IMG/VR virus record: IMGVR_UViG_3300036828_000126
Coordinates: 1-41,441 of that record
Reading direction: 5' to 3' (one strand)
Origin: a virus
DNA length: 41,441 nt
Position numbers and translations under genes: made by a program. Under the pieces are notes generated by a model that was not told the DNA's origin, did no database searches, and saw only the letters and a program-made list of their open reading frames with translations. Shown one piece after another: positions 1,137-8,883 of this stretch; within the stretch, counting starts at the first letter, position 1, and each line of letters starts with the position of its first letter.

Positions 1137-2987
1137 ATGGAATGGAGCACTGCCTGCCTGGATTGGGAACGGAGGCTGCTTGCTGGCGAATCACTGATCC
1201 CATTCGGGCCATTATTCCCGGGTGAAGCGGCGGCAGCTTCAGAGATCTTCCGGGACCTGCGCATCGTCGATGCGGCTGGCAGTCCGACGATGGGCGAGGC
1301 GTGCAAAAGGTGGGTGTTCGACTTCTGCGATGCCGTCTTCGGCTCCTATGACCACGGGACAGGCCGCCGACTGATCCGCGAGTTTTTCCTTTCTGTATCG
1401 AAGAAGAATTCCAAGTCCACCACAGCGGCCGGCATAATGCTGACCGCGCTGTTGAGGAATTGGCGCAGGTCTGCCGAGTTCATCGTCTTGGCTCCGACGA
1501 TCGAGGTTGCGCAGAATTCGTTCAAGCCGGCCCACGACATGATAATGGAGGACGAGAACCTAGCCGCCATCCTGCGGTCGCAGCCACATTTTCGCGTCAT
1601 CACGCACAAGACGACCGGCGCCACGTTGAAGGTGATCGCGGCGGACGATGAAGCTGTAAGCGGCAAGAAGGCCGTCGGCGTTCTGGTGGATGAACTCTGG
1701 CTGTTCGGCAAGCGCCCGAATGCCGAGAACATGCTACGGGAAGCCACGGGTGGCCTTGCGTCGCGGCCCGAGGGATTTGTTATCTATCTATCGACGCAAT
1801 CTGACGAACCTCCGACCGGCATTTTCAAGCAAAAGCTCGAATACTTTCGGGACGTTCGCGACGGCAAAATACTGGATCCGCGATCGCTGCCAGTGCTGTA
1901 TGAGTTTCCTAGACGGATCCTGGACGAGGAACTCTACCGCGATCCGTCCATGTTCTACCTCACCAACCCGAATATCGGTGCTTCGGTAGATCGCGAGTTC
2001 CTGGCGGGCGAATATCAGAAGGCTCTGCTTGCTGGCCCTGGTTCGACCGCCGGCTTTCTCGCCAAGCATCTGAACATCGAGCTGGGGATCAACATCCGCG
2101 GCAATCGCTGGCCGGGCGCTGAGTTCTGGAGCCAGCGCGCGGATCCTGCCATCACGCTCGAGGCCATCCTGGATCGCTGCGAGGTCGTGGTGATCGGCAT
2201 CGATGGCGGCGGCCTTGACGACCTGTTCGGCCTGGCGGCACTCGGCCGCGAGCGCGACACGAAGGCGTGGCTGCTGTGGTCGCACGGCTGGGCGCATAAG
2301 GGCGTGCTCGAGCGCCGGAAGTCCATTGCCACGCGGCTGACTGAGTTCGCGTCGGCGGGCGAGTTGACGATCGTGGATGACCAACTCGATGACCTGTCAG
2401 CGATCGTCGCCATCGTGGCGCGCGTCAAGGACGCCGGGCTGTTGGGTGGCGTCGCAGTCGACCCGGCGGGCCTGGGCGAGTTCGTCGACGCGATGGCGGA
2501 GATCGAGGTCACGCAGGACGCCAAGCTGCTGATTGGCGTCGGCCAAGGCTACCGCATGATGAATGCGATCAAGACCGCCGAGAGGAGATTGGCCAGCGGC
2601 ACGCTGCGTCACAGCGGGAGCGGGCTCATGGCATGGTGCGTCGCGAACTTGAAGATCGAGCCGACGGCGACCGCAATCAGGGCCACGAAGCAGAACGCCG
2701 GCGACGCGAAGATCGATCCCGCCATGGCGATGTTCGACGCGGTCGACATCATGAGCACCAACCCGGATGCCAATGGGATCAGCATCTACGAGACGATGAG
2801 CGACGAAACCGCCGCGGAATTCGGCTTGCAGATCAGTGCTGATGCGGTGTCACAGCTTGCGGATCGGATGCAGATCGACGGCGATGAGCGTGTGATCTTA
2901 GCAAATCCTCGCCATCCACGCTGGCAGGAGGTGCGCGAGCGTTTCGAGGAACGGCTGGTTGGGGCCGGAAGCGAGGATGAGTTCTGA
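1137..2987 (+). CDS. terL: Terminase large subunit
   Basis: The 616-residue motor of DNA packaging, with ATPase and nuclease halves. In the ATPase domain the Walker-A-like segment SVSKKNSKST is at 86-95, Walker B VLVDEL at 182-187, and a coupling motif LSTQS near 219-222. The C-terminal nuclease domain has acidic residues in GIDGGG (Asp356), VDPAG (Asp442) and KIDPAMAMFDA (Asp527/Asp534), as expected for an RNase H-like fold. Length and motif order fit the HK97/Terminase_1 group. The ATG at 1137 has a poor ribosome-binding site, and translation probably couples to the small subunit 7 nt upstream. The methyltransferase gene overlaps its 3' end. Confidence 0.95.
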   Translation: MEWSTACLDWERRLLAGESLIPFGPLFPGEAAAASEIFRDLRIVDAAGSPTMGEACKRWVFDFCDAVFGSYDHGTGRRLIREFFLSVSKKNSKSTTAAGIMLTALLRNWRRSAEFIVLAPTIEVAQNSFKPAHDMIMEDENLAAILRSQPHFRVITHKTTGATLKVIAADDEAVSGKKAVGVLVDELWLFGKRPNAENMLREATGGLASRPEGFVIYLSTQSDEPPTGIFKQKLEYFRDVRDGKILDPRSLPVLYEFPRRILDEELYRDPSMFYLTNPNIGASVDREFLAGEYQKALLAGPGSTAGFLAKHLNIELGINIRGNRWPGAEFWSQRADPAITLEAILDRCEVVVIGIDGGGLDDLFGLAALGRERDTKAWLLWSHGWAHKGVLERRKSIATRLTEFASAGELTIVDDQLDDLSAIVAIVARVKDAGLLGGVAVDPAGLGEFVDAMAEIEVTQDAKLLIGVGQGYRMMNAIKTAERRLASGTLRHSGSGLMAWCVANLKIEPTATAIRATKQNAGDAKIDPAMAMFDAVDIMSTNPDANGISIYETMSDETAAEFGLQISADAVSQLADRMQIDGDERVILANPRHPRWQEVRERFEERLVGAGSEDEF

Positions 2988-4311
2988 TGGCGGCCACATG
3001 ATCGAGTTATTCGAGGGCGACTGCATCGACGTCCTGGCTGGCCTCTCCGACAGTTCGGTCCATGCGATTGTTACGGACCCGCCGTATGCTTTAACATTCA
3101 TGGGGCGCGCATGGGACAGGTTCGAGCCGCGTGAGTATCAGGCGTGGTGCGAGCGATGGTCGCGCGAGGCTCTGCGCGTGCTGAAGCCGGGCGGGCATAT
3201 GCTGGCGTTCGGCGGGACGCGGACATGCCATCGGCTGGTGACTGGGATCGAGGATGCTGGATTCGAGGTCCGCGACATGGTGGCATGGCTCTATGGATCT
3301 GGCTTCCCTAAATCGCTCGACGTGTCCAAGGCGATCGACAAGGCGGCGAGAGCGGAGCGGGAGGTTGTGGGGCGGTATCAACCACCGAACGGCACGACCT
3401 GGAATTTGGAGAATGATACGGCCAGAACCGAGATCGGCGCTAATGGGCACTCGTCACGCGCCGCCTCTCTCGTCATCACCGCCCCTATCACGCCGGAAGC
3501 CGTCCGCTGGGCCGGCTGGGGCACGGCGCTAAAGCCCGCGATGGAGCCGATCGTCCTGGCCCGCAAGCCGCTATCCGAACGCACCGTGGCGGCGAACGTC
3601 CTGGCGCACGGCACGGGGGCGATGAATATCGACGCTTGTCGGATCGAGGGCGCCCCGCCAAGCCGCCAGCAGCCCGCATTCAACAGCCCAACGGGTAAGA
3701 TTTATGGGTTCAAGGCGGGTGAAGGCCGCAACGGTGAAATGAGTCACGCAACCGGCCGCTGGCCGGCCAATGTTTTGCACGACGGCAGCGACGAAGTGGA
3801 AGCGGCGTTCGCGGCGGCGGGGGAGCGGACGAGCGGCGCACTGAAGCCTTACCGTGAGCAGCACGAGAACGCTACCAGCTTCCGCATGGACCGCGACAAG
3901 ACATACACGAAGGCCGCCGACTCTGGCACGGCATCCAGATTCTATTACACAGCGAAAGCGGACGGCGACGGCCGCGTGTTCTACTGCACGCTATGCCAGC
4001 GCCATTTCAACGCCATCGACAAGGTGGAGCATCGGCACGGGCGGCCCGACATGCGCCACGTCAACACGCATCCGACGGTGAAGCCGATCGACCTGCTGCG
4101 GTGGCTGGTGCGGCTGATCACGCCGCCCGGTGGGACGGTGCTGGATATGTTTGCCGGGACTGGCACTACTGGCGAGGCTGCCATGCTCGAGGGTTTCGAC
4201 TGCATCCTGATCGAGCGTGATGCGGCGAGTGTGGCGGACATTCGGCACCGGCTCAGCCGATGGTCCGGTCTGGATGCGCCGCTGTTCCTAGAAACTGCGG
4301 CGGCAGATTAG
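2977..4311 (+). CDS. DNA N4-cytosine/N6-adenine methyltransferase with inserted zinc-knuckle-like segment
   Basis: A 444-residue AdoMet-dependent DNA amino-methyltransferase of the N6_N4_Mtase family. The catalytic motif DPPY is at 34-37 and the AdoMet-binding FAGTGTTG at 392-399, so the order is motif IV before I (beta-class arrangement). The HPTVKP segment just before motif I is typical of the family. The long middle is probably target recognition. Unusually, residues 337-354 hold CTLC followed by HRH (Cys337, Cys340, His352, His354), where relatives normally have a short basic stretch. No cognate restriction gene is visible, so the enzyme probably protects phage DNA or is regulatory. The start at 2977 has GGAAG six nt upstream and overlaps terL by 11 nt; ATG 2998 is the alternative. 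Confidence 0.9.
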   Translation: MSSDGGHMIELFEGDCIDVLAGLSDSSVHAIVTDPPYALTFMGRAWDRFEPREYQAWCERWSREALRVLKPGGHMLAFGGTRTCHRLVTGIEDAGFEVRDMVAWLYGSGFPKSLDVSKAIDKAARAEREVVGRYQPPNGTTWNLENDTARTEIGANGHSSRAASLVITAPITPEAVRWAGWGTALKPAMEPIVLARKPLSERTVAANVLAHGTGAMNIDACRIEGAPPSRQQPAFNSPTGKIYGFKAGEGRNGEMSHATGRWPANVLHDGSDEVEAAFAAAGERTSGALKPYREQHENATSFRMDRDKTYTKAADSGTASRFYYTAKADGDGRVFYCTLCQRHFNAIDKVEHRHGRPDMRHVNTHPTVKPIDLLRWLVRLITPPGGTVLDMFAGTGTTGEAAMLEGFDCILIERDAASVADIRHRLSRWSGLDAPLFLETAAAD

Positions 4312-4321
4312 GTAAGGCGTG

Positions 4322-5710
4322 ATGGCTGGCATCTGGGACCACATCGCTGGCCTGTTCGCACAGCGCCAGGTCGGCGATGCGCGGTATCCTGCGCAGCGCA
4401 TGATCCCATTCTCGCCGGCGGTGATGGCCGGCGTTCGCGTCACGCCGGACACCGCGATCACGGTGCCCGCAGTGTGGGCGTGCCTGCGCTATCTCTCGCA
4501 GACTGTCGCGTTCCTGCCGTGGCATGTAATGCTGCAATCCGACAACGGCGGGCGGCAGGCGCCAACGCATCCGGTCGATTGGCTGCTCTACAAGCGACCC
4601 AACCCTGAGTGGAGCAGCTTCCAGTTTCGCGAGACGCTGACACATTGGGCGCTGCGGCATGGCAACGGGTATGCCGAGATCGAGCGCGATCCGATAGGCC
4701 GCCCGATGGCTCTCTGGCCGATCCATCCGCGTCGTGTCCTGCCCTTCCGCGATGACGTAAATGGCGTGCTGCGCTATCGCGTCTTTGCGCCGAATACAGA
4801 TTCGCTGGCGCCAACGGAACTCGACGCGGCCGATATGTTCCATCTGCGCGGATTTGGCGAAGATGTTGTTGGTCTATCGGTCATTGAATACGCTGCTGAG
4901 TCAATAGGCTGGGCGAAGGCAGCGCAGATTTTCGGCGCGTCGTTTTTCGGGTCCGGCATGAATATTGCTGGCGTCGTGCAGTCAAAAAAGCCGATGAATG
5001 ATACCGCCATGCGGAGATTGAGGGCGGGCTTCAATCGGATGTATCGCGGCGTCAAGGGCGAACGCATGATGTTCCTTGACGACGGGATGGAATACAAGTC
5101 AGTAGGCATTGAACCGGAAAAGGGCCAGTTTCTCGCCACCAACAACTTCTTGGTAAGCGAGATTTGTCGGTGGTTCGGCGTGCCTCCACACAAGGTAGCG
5201 CAACTGGAGCGCTCGACGCTCAGCAATATCGAACATCAGGGGATCGAGGTTGTCGTCGACAGCATCTCGCCGTGGTGCAAGCGATTCGAGGACGAGGCGG
5301 ATTACAAATTATTTGGCCAGAACCGGCAGGGTTACTACACGAAGCTGAATCTTAATGCCCTGATGCGCGGTGACTCCGTGTCACGTTCCGGGTTTTACGA
5401 GAAGCTGCGTCAGCTTGGCGCCCTGAGCGTCAACGACATCCTGCGCTTTGAGGACATGAACACGATCAGCGCGGCTGATGGCGGAGACAAGCGGGTGATG
5501 CAAGCGCAGTTCACGACGCTGGACAAGATCGGCGAGGCACCGCCGGCACCGACCGTCATTCCGGCCGGAGAGTCCACACCGAGCCACAATCCGTCGCCCG
5601 GCAGCGAGCCGTCCCGGTCAACGCCTGCGTCGCCGACCGGTGCGAGGGAACGCGCGGCAATGCAGGCACTGGCAACGCTGGAGTTAGAACTGGAGGCCAT
5701 AGGAGCATGA
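4322..5710 (+). CDS. HK97-type portal protein
   Basis: The 462-residue portal forms the dodecameric ring at the capsid vertex through which DNA passes. Characteristic features include TVPAVWACLRYLSQTVAFLP near the N-terminus, the WSSFQFRETLTHWALRHGNG helix, HLRGFGEDVVGLS, and the C-terminal ILRFEDMN segment. Length matches the family (about 400-450). The last 60 residues are Pro/Ser-rich and probably disordered, ending in a short acidic helix. The ATG at 4322 follows AAGG; a GTG three bases earlier is possible. In HK97-like operons the protease gene follows directly. Here a 3.4-kb insertion separates them. Confidence 0.93.
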   Translation: MAGIWDHIAGLFAQRQVGDARYPAQRMIPFSPAVMAGVRVTPDTAITVPAVWACLRYLSQTVAFLPWHVMLQSDNGGRQAPTHPVDWLLYKRPNPEWSSFQFRETLTHWALRHGNGYAEIERDPIGRPMALWPIHPRRVLPFRDDVNGVLRYRVFAPNTDSLAPTELDAADMFHLRGFGEDVVGLSVIEYAAESIGWAKAAQIFGASFFGSGMNIAGVVQSKKPMNDTAMRRLRAGFNRMYRGVKGERMMFLDDGMEYKSVGIEPEKGQFLATNNFLVSEICRWFGVPPHKVAQLERSTLSNIEHQGIEVVVDSISPWCKRFEDEADYKLFGQNRQGYYTKLNLNALMRGDSVSRSGFYEKLRQLGALSVNDILRFEDMNTISAADGGDKRVMQAQFTTLDKIGEAPPAPTVIPAGESTPSHNPSPGSEPSRSTPASPTGARERAAMQALATLELELEAIGA

Positions 5711-5711
5711 T

Positions 5712-5796
5712 GTGTTGTGACGTGTCGTGTCGTGTCGTGAAATGTCGTGATGTGGCGTGACGTGAAGTGGCATTGCGTGATGTGGCGTGGCGTTAC
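5712..5796. repeat. Pentamer array 1 (17 units of GTGNN)
   Basis: Seventeen consecutive 5-nt units, read on the plus strand as GTGNN, with no break in phase. Fourteen have GTG exactly; the others are ATG, ATT and GTT. The two N positions vary freely. On the strand that encodes the neighbouring genes the units read NNCAC. The array begins one base after the portal stop and ends 6 nt before the stop codon of the convergent gene at 5803-6321, so it fills the whole gap. Period 5 cannot encode a protein repeat. Counts were made by hand. Confidence 0.9.
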
Positions 5797-5802
5797 GACT
5801 TA

Positions 5803-6321
5803 TTATGGTTGCTCTGACAGCCTACCCGAGCGGGCGGCTCGCATAGCATCCAAACTCGCTCTTATCGTTTCACTCGTCGGAGGCGGCGTCGCACCATCAC
5901 GGATGATCGGCCGGTTTCGATCATACGTCATATGCACGAGCAGCCCGAGAGCAGCCTGTTCTGAGAATGCTTTGATCCTCGCCGTGTTTGACATATCGTT
6001 GGCGACGATGAGGACATTCGCGATGGACTTCGACGCCCGACTGAAAAGCCTCCGCCCTCGCAATCTGGCGCGTTTACCGAGAGCGTGAGCCTCATCGTTC
6101 TGCATCCTCTGATAGCCTGATTGCCGCACGTTGACGAAGATGGCTCCGGTTTCACGATTGGCCAGATCCATTGCGCGGTATGCAAGATAGAGACGCCGGT
6201 CTATCGGCGAGCCTAGCGCTTTGGATAATTCCTCGTAGCGCACGAGACCGCTGATCGAGCAAGCCTCGAACACATCGGCCAGTTTGCGGACTATCGCGGC
6301 GTTCGTGGTGACGAAGGGCAT
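5803..6321 (-). CDS. Conserved phage protein of unknown function (array module, gene B)
   Basis: A 172-residue soluble, basic protein. From memory it resembles a widespread family of uncharacterised phage proteins with a helical N-terminus (IVRKLADVFEA), a segment like VRYEELSKALGS that reads as a winged-helix-like start, then GAIFVNVRQSGYQRM and a basic helical stretch RARLRGRRLFSRASKSIANV (about 85-103). The order resembles a small nucleic-acid-binding protein, but no catalytic motif is visible. The ATG at 6321 is preceded by AGGAGACC on the minus strand, just outside pentamer array 2. The stop is followed by array 1. Longer reading upstream through the array would give a His/Thr-rich artefact, so this start is preferred. 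Function is unknown. Confidence 0.72.
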   Translation of the reverse strand: MPFVTTNAAIVRKLADVFEACSISGLVRYEELSKALGSPIDRRLYLAYRAMDLANRETGAIFVNVRQSGYQRMQNDEAHALGKRARLRGRRLFSRASKSIANVLIVANDMSNTARIKAFSEQAALGLLVHMTYDRNRPIIRDGATPPPTSETIRASLDAMRAARSGRLSEQP

Positions 6322-6340
6322 TGTCTTCTGGGTCTCCTGT

Positions 6341-6475
6341 GTGTTGTGTTGTCGAATGAAATGCCGTGACGTGCAGTGCCATGGTGTGAAGTGCGGTGGT
6401 GTGCTGTGCAGTGCGATGGCGTTGCGTGATGTGGCGTTGCGTGGCGTGCCATGTTGTGGTTTGCAATGGAGTGTA
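6341..6475. repeat. Pentamer array 2 (27 units of GTGNN)
   Basis: Twenty-seven consecutive in-phase 5-nt units between genes A and B of the minus-strand module. By hand count 17 are GTGNN and 6 ATGNN; the remaining four are GTC, GTT (two) and TTG variants. The array runs from 3 nt after the stop codon of gene A to the Shine-Dalgarno sequence of gene B. It shares the 16-mer ttgcgtgatgtggcgt (6422-6437) with array 1 (5773-5788) and cagtgcgatggcgt (6409-6422) with array 3 (7146-7159). Confidence 0.9.
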
Positions 6476-6478
6476 GAA

Positions 6479-7081
6479 TCAATCGGCTGCGAGTTTCTGA
6501 CGGTTGTCAATCCACTCCAACTTTTTGAGGATGAACCGGCCATTTGAACCGCCCTTCTCTGGTCGGTACTGGCCAAGGCCGATGTAGAGGCCGGTCAACT
6601 CGATCATCTCGCGGAATATGTTCTTGGTGATGATCGGATCAAGGATAAGGGCCTCGAATGTCACTTGCCATCCCATCGGTATCTGAGGGAGGCGGCGCGT
6701 GACTCGGGAGCCGGAACCACGCTTGCCATCGGAATTGAGCGACAGGACGATGCATTCGACCTTTGCTGGATCAATGCCTAGGGAGATCGGGCCTAGGATG
6801 CTGACGCCTGACCGCATCTTGGCTGTCCACGTGGCTTTGCCTTGGCCCTTGATTTGGATCTTCGAGTAACGCGCGGCTTCACATAGTGCCATGTGGACGG
6901 CGAATGACGGGATACACATTCGAGGCTTTCCGTCTATGAGTTCGACGGTCATCTTCGATCGCCATGTGCGCCGATCATAGTCGTCTGGCCCTTCGCCTTC
7001 GAGCCACGGATCGTCATGCTTGCGAGATTGCGAGTAAGGCGCGGTGCCATCGATGGTAACGACTGCCTTGGTGAAGTCCAT
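6479..7081 (-). CDS. Conserved phage protein with glycine-rich C-terminal loop (array module, gene A)
   Basis: A 200-residue protein. It matches, from memory, a large family of uncharacterised phage proteins with an N-terminal beta-strand ending in a GTAP-type turn (VVTIDGTAPYSQ, about 7-18) and a C-terminal helix followed by GLGQYRP...GGSNGRF (168-183). The helix-then-glycine-rich-loop ending recalls RAMP/ferredoxin-like RNA-binding folds (Cas5/6/7). That similarity is inferred from the motif alone and needs a structure prediction. The middle holds CIPSFAVHMALCEAARYSKI. The ATG at 7081 has GGAG six nt upstream, directly next to the first unit of array 3. Array 2 follows its stop. Gene B lies downstream on the same strand. 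No nuclease or polymerase motif is visible. Confidence 0.72.
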   Translation of the reverse strand: MDFTKAVVTIDGTAPYSQSRKHDDPWLEGEGPDDYDRRTWRSKMTVELIDGKPRMCIPSFAVHMALCEAARYSKIQIKGQGKATWTAKMRSGVSILGPISLGIDPAKVECIVLSLNSDGKRGSGSRVTRRLPQIPMGWQVTFEALILDPIITKNIFREMIELTGLYIGLGQYRPEKGGSNGRFILKKLEWIDNRQKLAAD

Positions 7082-7092
7082 TTCTATCTCCG

Positions 7093-7197
7093 GTGTTGTG
7101 GCGTGCGATGCAGTTGGGTGGTGTTGAGTGATGTGATGTCGATTACAGTGCGATGGCGTGCAGTGCGATGTGGTGTGGTGAAGTGTGGTGCCGTATG
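7093..7197. repeat. Pentamer array 3 (21 units of GTGNN)
   Basis: Twenty-one in-phase 5-nt units between genes C and A of the minus-strand module; by hand count 13 are GTGNN and 3 ATGNN. The last unit ends one base before the stop codon of gene C (7199-7201), and the first abuts the ribosome-binding site of gene A, whose transcript reads AACAC then CGGAG. The same AACAC-to-GGAG junction occurs between array 2 and gene B. Confidence 0.88.
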
Positions 7198-7198
7198 T

Positions 7199-7465
7199 TC
7201 ATGCAGAACGCGGTCTTCCACGCCTGCGAGGCGGGCGGCACCTGACCTTCCTGGTGCGTAGCCATTCGATCGCAGGATCAACCAGGATGAATGGCGTTCG
7301 GCCGATGTACTCAACCGGCATGCCTGCTGCTATCCAGTTGTAAACCGTTCGCTCGGTGCGCCCGTCTGGCGGCACAGCTGCCGCGAATTGCCTGATCGTT
7401 GCCCGACCCGCCAGCAGCTTTTCTCTCACCTCAGTTGTGACTTCGGACGGCGGAATATGGGTCAT
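7199..7465 (-). CDS. Small helix-turn-helix DNA-binding protein, excisionase/repressor-like (array module, gene C)
   Basis: An 88-residue protein with a compact helix-turn-helix core: ATIRQFAAAV, then RTERTVYNWIAAGMPVEYIG and a strand FILVDPAIEWL. This is the layout of AlpA/excisionase-type winged-helix proteins. A very basic tail (RRRGRPRSA ending) could contact DNA nonspecifically. An alternative GTG start at 7510 would add 15 residues; the ATG at 7465 has GCGAGGA directly upstream, so the start is uncertain. It is the first gene of the three-gene minus-strand block and diverges from the collagen-like gene. A 14-bp perfect palindrome 96 nt upstream of its start is a natural operator candidate. 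Confidence 0.68.
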   Translation of the reverse strand: MTHIPPSEVTTEVREKLLAGRATIRQFAAAVPPDGRTERTVYNWIAAGMPVEYIGRTPFILVDPAIEWLRTRKVRCRPPRRRGRPRSA

Positions 7466-7659: not shown

Positions 7660-8883
7660 GTGGAATTAGTTGGTGGTCAATGGAAAATGCCTGACGATCC
7701 CCTGATCATGGCGCTGGCCAGCGGTGGCGAGCCAGATGCCGATGGGCCGTGGTCGTCGGTCTATCGGTTGATGCGCCGCGCGTTCGCTCGCCTCGATCGG
7801 CTCGGCAGCCGCATCGACACGATAGCGCTCGCGCCAGGACCGCAGGGTGATGCAGGCGCGGCTGGGCCGGCCGGCGATCCGGGACCGCCTGGAGAGTCCG
7901 GCGAGGATGGCGCTGACGGCCTGCCGGGACCGGCAGGGCCTCCCGGACCGCAGGGGCCGCAAGGTGAGCCGGGGCCACCCGGTGAGGACGGTGCGGACGG
8001 CCCAGCGGGAACGCCAGGGCCTCCCGGACCGCAAGGCGAACCCGGTGAGCCAGGGCCGCCTGGGGAGTCCGGTGAGGACGGTGTAGCAGGCCCGCAAGGG
8101 CTGCCCGGGCCGCAGGGCGAGCGTGGCGACCAGGGGCAGCCGGGACCGGTTGGCGAGGACGGTGCAGACGGCATCACGGGTCGCGACGGCAGGGACGGCT
8201 TGCCTGGGCCGCAGGGCGATGCCGGCGCGGCTGGTCCGACCGGCGATCCCGGTCAGGATGGCGAGGACGGTGCAGACGGCGAGCCGGGGCTGCCGGGGCC
8301 TGCTGGTCCTGCCGGGCCACAAGGCGAGCCCGGGCCGGCCGGTGAGGACGGCGAGCCGGGACCGCCCGGCCCTCAGGGCCTGCAGGGCGAGCGTGGCGAC
8401 CAGGGGCAGCCGGGACCGGCTGGTGAGGACGGTCAGGACGGCATCATGGGCCGCGACGGCAGGGACGGCTTGCCCGGACCGCAGGGCGAGCGCGGACCAC
8501 AAGGCGATCCAGGCCCACGCGGCATGCAAGGCCCGCAAGGTGACCCGGGCGAGGCCGGAGACATGGGGCCGATGGGCGCGGCCGGATTGGGGATTCAGCA
8601 TGCTGCCATTTCGGATGCGGGAATGCTTCAGATCGTTCTCACGGATGGCGCGGTGCTCGATCTGGGCCGCGTCATCGGCGCCAACGGACGCGACGGCATC
8701 CAGGGCGTCCGCGGCAGCGCCGGCCCGCAAGGCGAACCCGGTGAGCCAGGACCGCCAGGCGGAACGATCCTCGAGGTCGGATCGGCGCGCGCCGCAGGAC
8801 TGACCGCGCGGACATTGGATCGGCTGGTCGCGCGCAAGCTGACGATCGACGGTGCCGAGATCACCGTCCTGACGCTCGACTAA
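7660..8883 (+). CDS. Collagen-like (Gly-X-Y) repeat protein
   Basis: A 407-residue protein. Residues about 60-305 are almost uninterrupted Gly-X-Y triplets rich in Pro, Asp, Glu, Gln and Arg, as in bacterial and phage collagen-like proteins that trimerise into a rigid stalk. The N-terminal 60 residues ([14 protein letters not shown], then helical [18 protein letters not shown]) probably trimerise or anchor. A non-collagen segment (about 308-340, [20 protein letters not shown]) is followed by a short second Gly-X-Y stretch and a C-terminal cap ending [15 protein letters not shown]. Similar stalks occur in phage tail or head fibres. The start is uncertain: GTG 7660 or ATG 7687 (nine residues shorter), both with weak ribosome-binding sites. 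Its place between portal and protease genes is atypical for a tail fibre and suggests a head decoration or an inserted gene. Confidence 0.85.
8116..8219 (+). repeat. Internal duplication in collagen-like gene, copy 1
   Basis: A block of about 104 bp encodes [19 protein letters not shown] and the following [13 protein letters not shown]. It recurs nearly unchanged at 8385-8489, with scattered mostly silent or conservative differences. This points to recent expansion of the collagen tract by recombination between triplet repeats. Confidence 0.8.
8385..8489 (+). repeat. Internal duplication in collagen-like gene, copy 2
   Basis: Second copy of the collagen block, beginning [16 protein letters not shown] and ending GLPGPQGE, against the copy at 8116-8219. 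Differences include Val to Ala, Ala to Gln and Thr to Met substitutions in the variable X/Y positions. Confidence 0.8.

Follow-up and report, generated by a model that had tools for sequence, protein, structure and literature searches.

The window, by which we mean the entire 41,441-nt stretch of viral DNA analysed here, contains terminase, portal, head protease and tail-fibre genes; the locus described below is therefore phage-borne, as is expected of VIPR. Between the portal and the collagen-like tail-fibre genes of this tailed phage, both of which are on the plus strand, lies a minus-strand block in the operon order array, vipr, array, vap1-like gene, array (Table 1). VIPR, as described in a 2026 preprint (PMC13142463), is a phage weapon and possible forerunner of CRISPR, in which Vipr, a RAMP protein, works with vrRNAs made up of GGY and NN in alternation; the NN pairs alone specify the DNA target, which is read with a one-base skip.

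The tail-fibre gene adjoining the locus (7660-8883, plus strand) specifies Gly-X-Y repeats and contains 72-81 bp tandem repeats. A DNA methyltransferase gene (2959-4311, plus strand) is situated between those for the terminase large subunit and the portal. Upstream of array 3 a small protein (7199-7465, minus strand) shows a weak match to the terminase small subunit family phrog_57; it was dropped as a part of the system because it is absent from relatives. Nucleotide and protein searches of the locus against named phages returned no match, and Pfam, PADLOC and NCBIfam gave nothing informative for the window's proteins, with no useful match for the vipr product. No cas gene set was present among the window proteins scanned, nor was a CRISPR array found in the TRF output.

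Table 1. Genes and pentanucleotide arrays of the minus-strand locus
Feature	Position	Strand	Description
Array 1	5705..5794	-	18 CAYNN units, downstream of vap1-like gene; single 5-nt phase
vap1-like gene	5803..6321	-	172 aa, predicted winged-helix N-terminus, helical C-terminus
Array 2	6339..6478	-	28 CAYNN units, between vipr and vap1-like gene; single 5-nt phase
vipr	6479..7081	-	200 aa, RAMP fold, G-loop GLGQYRPEKGGSNGRF
Array 3	7091..7195	-	21 CAYNN units upstream of vipr, presumed vrRNA guide(s); same position in relatives

Pentanucleotide arrays of the window

The three arrays lie within positions 5705-7195. The initial annotation had counted 65 units (17, 27 and 21), with 44 GTG and 10 ATG triplets; the GTG number holds, and counting over the window gives 67 units (18, 28 and 21) with 11 ATG. 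Read on the minus strand, which is that of the adjoining genes, the unit is CAY-NN: 44 units carry CAC (GTG on the plus strand), 11 carry CAT (ATG), and the remainder are mostly near-misses, the middle A being found in 66 of the 67. The information content on this strand over the 67 units is 1.12, 1.89, 1.14, 0.06 and 0.04 bits per position, and 15 of the 16 possible NN dinucleotides are used. With three positions near fixed and two near random, the proposal of selection on a triplet every 5 nt is upheld. So is that of strict phase, inasmuch as no array contains a single indel, the phase not being kept across the genes in between. The best 16-unit stretch of the window contains 15 RTG triplets, as against a maximum of eight when the window was simulated 300 times under a first-order Markov model and 4-5 in the best stretches outside the arrays; no further array of the CAYNN kind occurs elsewhere in the 41,441 nt.

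The arrays occupy the gaps from a stop codon to the next ribosome-binding site, as first described. The last unit of array 1 overlaps the stop codon of the plus-strand portal gene, and CACAA stands three units before its end. Array 2 terminates in GACAA CACAA CACAC, followed by AGGAG, and shows the fixed 3′ AA units seen in relatives; array 3 terminates in CACAA CACCG, and both run into the next ribosome-binding site. A search of the window for a structured 3′ tail produced no Rfam match.

Relatives of the locus and their proteins

Relatives were sought by protein rather than by repeat, giving 14 loci in bacterial and archaeal genomes, together with the best 80 of 344 found in viral contigs. 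In most of these 94 loci, found by protein alone, period-5 arrays adjoin vipr on its own strand, and the period-5 scores at the relatives' arrays exceed 4 bits, against a maximum of 3.4 in shuffles. With the RTGNN pattern as the sole search criterion, the loci fall into two groups, 30 that are NN-diverse and 54 of low diversity only. A vipr gene lies within the fetched stretch in 22 of the 30 NN-diverse IMG/VR loci and in none of the 54 low-diversity GTGNN loci; several of the eight NN-diverse loci without one are cut short, or lie on the same contig as a vipr-bearing locus. On its own the RTGNN pattern has no diagnostic value; the useful filter is NN diversity. Three loci (L039, L074 and L076) carry NN-diverse arrays and no recognisable vipr in the fetched stretch; these are possibly orphan guides, or belong to a more distant Vipr.

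A check proposed at first was whether the arrays always lie beside homologues of three proteins (5803-6321, 6479-7081 and 7199-7465), their occurrence at random loci without these gene families being named as a refutation of the triplet-reading proposal. Simple GTGNN repeats do occur anywhere, whereas NN-diverse ones do not. The association is seen for the vipr family in the 22 loci mentioned and for the vap1-like family, a member of which follows vipr on its downstream side in 104 of 129 loci (in most of the others the contig ends before that point); it fails for the third protein, which is not conserved in relatives. These figures also bear on a purely neutral origin, namely a microsatellite that arose by slippage and then degenerated by mutation. 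Repeats of the simple GTGNN type exist in viral contigs, as the 54 low-diversity loci attest, but mutation would erode every position rather than leave three fixed and two near random, and it is the NN-diverse arrays that go with vipr, low-diversity ones never; we regard such an origin as extremely unlikely.

The product of vipr fits the description of Vipr as a RAMP homologue of about 20 kDa with an RRM core and a G-loop. A family profile (A1), built from 20 homologues taken from array-bearing loci, matches the PDB 36pp chain "SUSP1 Vipr protein" (E 5.2e-7) as well as the SUSP1 gene product among the collected loci (E 5.3e-8), and hhalign of the family against that gene product gave 95.7%. 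The vipr and vap1 genes of SUSP1 were located here from gene order and the adjoining GGYNN arrays. The AlphaFold2 model of the window protein (pLDDT 90.8) resembles PDB structures of Cas7-type RAMPs (Foldseek E 1.5e-7; Z 12.1), the nearest solved folds being Cas7 subunits of types III and VII. On the strength of the profile matches and the predicted fold, we identify this product as a Vipr-family RAMP protein, only distantly similar to SUSP1 Vipr. The initial suggestion was that a protein may read CAC (in RNA or ssDNA) or GTG; reading of CAC(Y) in RNA by a protein encoded beside the arrays is very probable, and the arrays are tied to this middle gene family.

The conserved gene downstream of vipr corresponds to the accessory vap gene of VIPR. 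The AlphaFold2 model of its product in the window reaches a pLDDT of 94, and its N-terminal domain resembles winged helices at moderate Z; the profile aligns weakly with SUSP1 Vap1 (81%).

Fixed triplet, guides and targets

On the coding strand the fixed triplet of the relatives is usually CGC/CGY; CAC/CAY, GAC, GGC, CTC, GTT and others also occur, and SUSP1, serving as a positive control, came out as GGY in the same scan. The arrays of one locus agree on their triplet, 4821 units having the main triplet versus 190 with any other. Ten triplet changes are needed on the Vipr tree compared with a shuffle mean of 32.6, a count that is approximate since this is a quick tree with many weakly supported inner branches; the CAY group of the window is nested within a 52-row clade, which is mostly CGY. 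Some CAY rows came from the RTG search, which biases the triplet frequencies, not the existence of switches.

Among 100 aligned Vipr proteins, Q at residue 171, which follows GxG in the G-loop, is confined to CAY systems (20 of 30), and every one of the 48 CGY systems scored has R; R is also seen with triplets other than CGY, and in a phylogenetic test the correlation comprises 2-3 independent pairs and cannot reach significance. The residue is Q in the window protein and D in SUSP1, a GGY system. From this alignment it is an appealing candidate reader of the second base of the triplet. The constant triplet may represent a switchable scaffold code, which has changed repeatedly between lineages (CGY, CAY, GAY, GGY, CTY, GTY), with all arrays of a genome converted together and Vipr co-evolving as the reader, residue 171 being the candidate contact; we consider the case for this evenly balanced. 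If true, different VIPRs would be orthogonal to one another's guides. The evolution of the scaffold triplet looks new. Neither the use of CAY nor triplet switching between lineages combined with uniformity inside a locus is described explicitly in the main text of PMC13142463, although its statement that all seven VIPR types use GGY/NN "or a related consensus" (fig. S17) may already cover the variant.

Many guides of the relatives start behind a TTTTCC-like leader and consist of about 7-11 variable units and fixed end units (CNC-AA or CAC-GA), followed by locus-specific sequence. Sequences repeated after the arrays, with possible hairpins in L131 and L187 and as the motif GGGATTTATAAG in L138, are candidate vrRNA tails. 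Uninterrupted arrays of 61, 62 and 72 units were observed in L207 (5498-5802 and 6400-6709) and L054 (3715-4074). Locus L220 possesses two plus-strand guides (5919-5988 and 6556-6705) with the common core TA GG TG TC GT GT AG and different ends, as if tracking variants of one target.

When 322 unique arrays were compared, at skips of 0-4, with the fetched loci (2 Mb in all), only two 19/20 matches at skip 1 appeared, both from one guide of a CGY locus (L141). This guide falls on the G-loop codons RPRNNG(F/Y)YGRF of relatives' vipr genes, matching 21/22 over 11 units at two loci, in frame and with the skip at the wobble base. The Paracoccus litorisediminis locus (L134) has four guides, three of which were compared with 125 genomes of its genus. 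In two of these genomes the first agrees at 20/20 with the terminase large-subunit codons DPLIERVTLV, the next AA unit fitting too, and a 2-nt-skip control of its pattern gave no match. For the second, a full match (22/22) to the antisense strand of the serine recombinase codons VDVVVVYKIDR was counted at 77 sites, spread over 43 genomes; these sites are homologous and count as one event, not 77. The third has a site 210 bases off in the same recombinase genes, with 2-3 mismatches. At uniform base composition the expected numbers of perfect sites per search are about 1e-3 for the terminase guide and 6e-5 for the recombinase guide. Because guides of relatives match terminase, recombinase and vipr genes in frame at a 1-nt skip, this rule holds in the wider family and with a triplet other than GGY (CGY relatives). 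The two bases that the initial annotation had taken for mere spacers thus decode, in relatives, to DNA targets.

Used as 8-unit exact patterns in IMG/VR, the guides of the window gave matches beyond the pattern at chance level and no target. In 327 genomes of an order, an array-3 guide produced 13 matches at 1-2 mismatches, as against two in a backward control; these were rejected, lying in unrelated genes. The CAY guides of L220 and L140 had no convincing target, a 21/22 site of the latter being outside any recognised phage gene, out of frame and not counted. A single 3-mismatch match of a Devosia guide was also rejected.

Interpretation and comparison with known systems

TRAP, the trp RNA-binding attenuation protein, is an oligomeric protein that reads regularly spaced GAG/UAG triplets in RNA, and it had been put forward as the best analogue of the arrays. 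By such a scheme an oligomeric protein would bind the CAC triplets of the transcript and control the operon, the spacer bases being without information. The likeness lies in regularly spaced triplets, thought to be read in RNA by an oligomeric protein, and is reinforced by their 5-nt spacing in every intergenic gap, beside ribosome-binding sites. It does not extend to the triplets themselves, which are CAC/CAT instead of (G/U)AG, nor to the adjoining protein, identified above as a Vipr-family RAMP; moreover, the fixed triplet varies from locus to locus and the spacer pairs of relatives are informative, matching in-frame targets perfectly. We judge TRAP-like regulation very unlikely; the closest relative is VIPR, by the Cas7-like RAMP fold and the sequence match to Vipr.

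A VIPR-like ribonucleoprotein could alternatively target RNA, with Vipr and the CAYNN guides binding complementary phage mRNA. The Cas7 subunits of types III and VII, which come nearest in fold, form complexes that bind RNA, and the searches found no CAY-system target that could decide the matter. However, in the terminase and vipr genes it is the sense strand that relatives' guides match, so that they are unable to pair with that mRNA, those against recombinase genes match the antisense strand, and the published type II VIPR binds double-stranded DNA (PMC13142463); RNA targeting is very improbable.

In our estimation the window carries, with a probability of about 0.9, a VIPR system that is phage-borne and uses a CAY/NN code, with the arrays as guide RNA genes. 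The association of arrays, vipr and vap in relatives, the logo and strand of the arrays, the RAMP fold, the homology to SUSP1 Vipr and the decoding of targets in CGY relatives speak for it; counted against it are the absence of a target for the window guides and of a convincing one for the other CAY systems searched, the CAY in place of GGY, and the failure to find a conserved structured 3′ tail in the window (no Rfam match). By analogy with the published system, the arrays would be transcribed along with vipr and the vap1-like gene, in the minus-strand direction, and would act as vrRNAs, presenting CAY triplets in series with two guide bases after each. Vipr subunits would coat the RNA, about one per pentamer, gripping the CAY triplet and presenting the NN pair. 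Should the skip rule of the CGY relatives also apply to CAY, the complex would read double-stranded DNA in the pattern NNxNNxNN, leaving out one base in each unit, for the most part the wobble base of a codon, and repress a gene belonging to a competing phage or mobile element, assisted by the Vap1-like winged-helix protein. Repression of competitors' genes is the most likely function because of the published VIPR mechanism and the decoded targets of relatives; guides hitting terminase, recombinase and vipr are as expected of conflict between mobile elements.

Starting from a bare sequence pattern, these results extend VIPR to many environmental phages, with 344 relatives in one IMG/VR scan, and the relatives point to a scaffold triplet that is not universal. 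Natural Viprs with different triplets are possibly orthogonal programmable DNA binders, and constitute a natural experiment on the reading of guide RNA. Compared with Class 1 CRISPR-Cas, the window protein has the RAMP fold of the backbone subunits (Cas7, Csm3; type III, type VII), whereas the guide is made of pentamers with a non-contiguous code and the locus is a minimal one of two genes, with no cas set among the proteins scanned. The type II VIPR of Escherichia phage SUSP1 (PMC13142463; PDB 36pp) differs from the window locus in its triplet (GGY versus CAY), in its shorter arrays (9-16 units versus 18-28, uninterrupted), in its pseudoknotted tail, none being recognised in the window by Rfam, and in a Vipr that is only distantly similar. 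The two have in common a phage-borne Vipr-family RAMP with a Vap1-like gene downstream, pentanucleotide arrays that occupy the gaps in the same orientation as the genes, a fixed triplet ending in Y followed by a hypervariable NN and, as observed in relatives of the window, the 1-nt-skip target rule.
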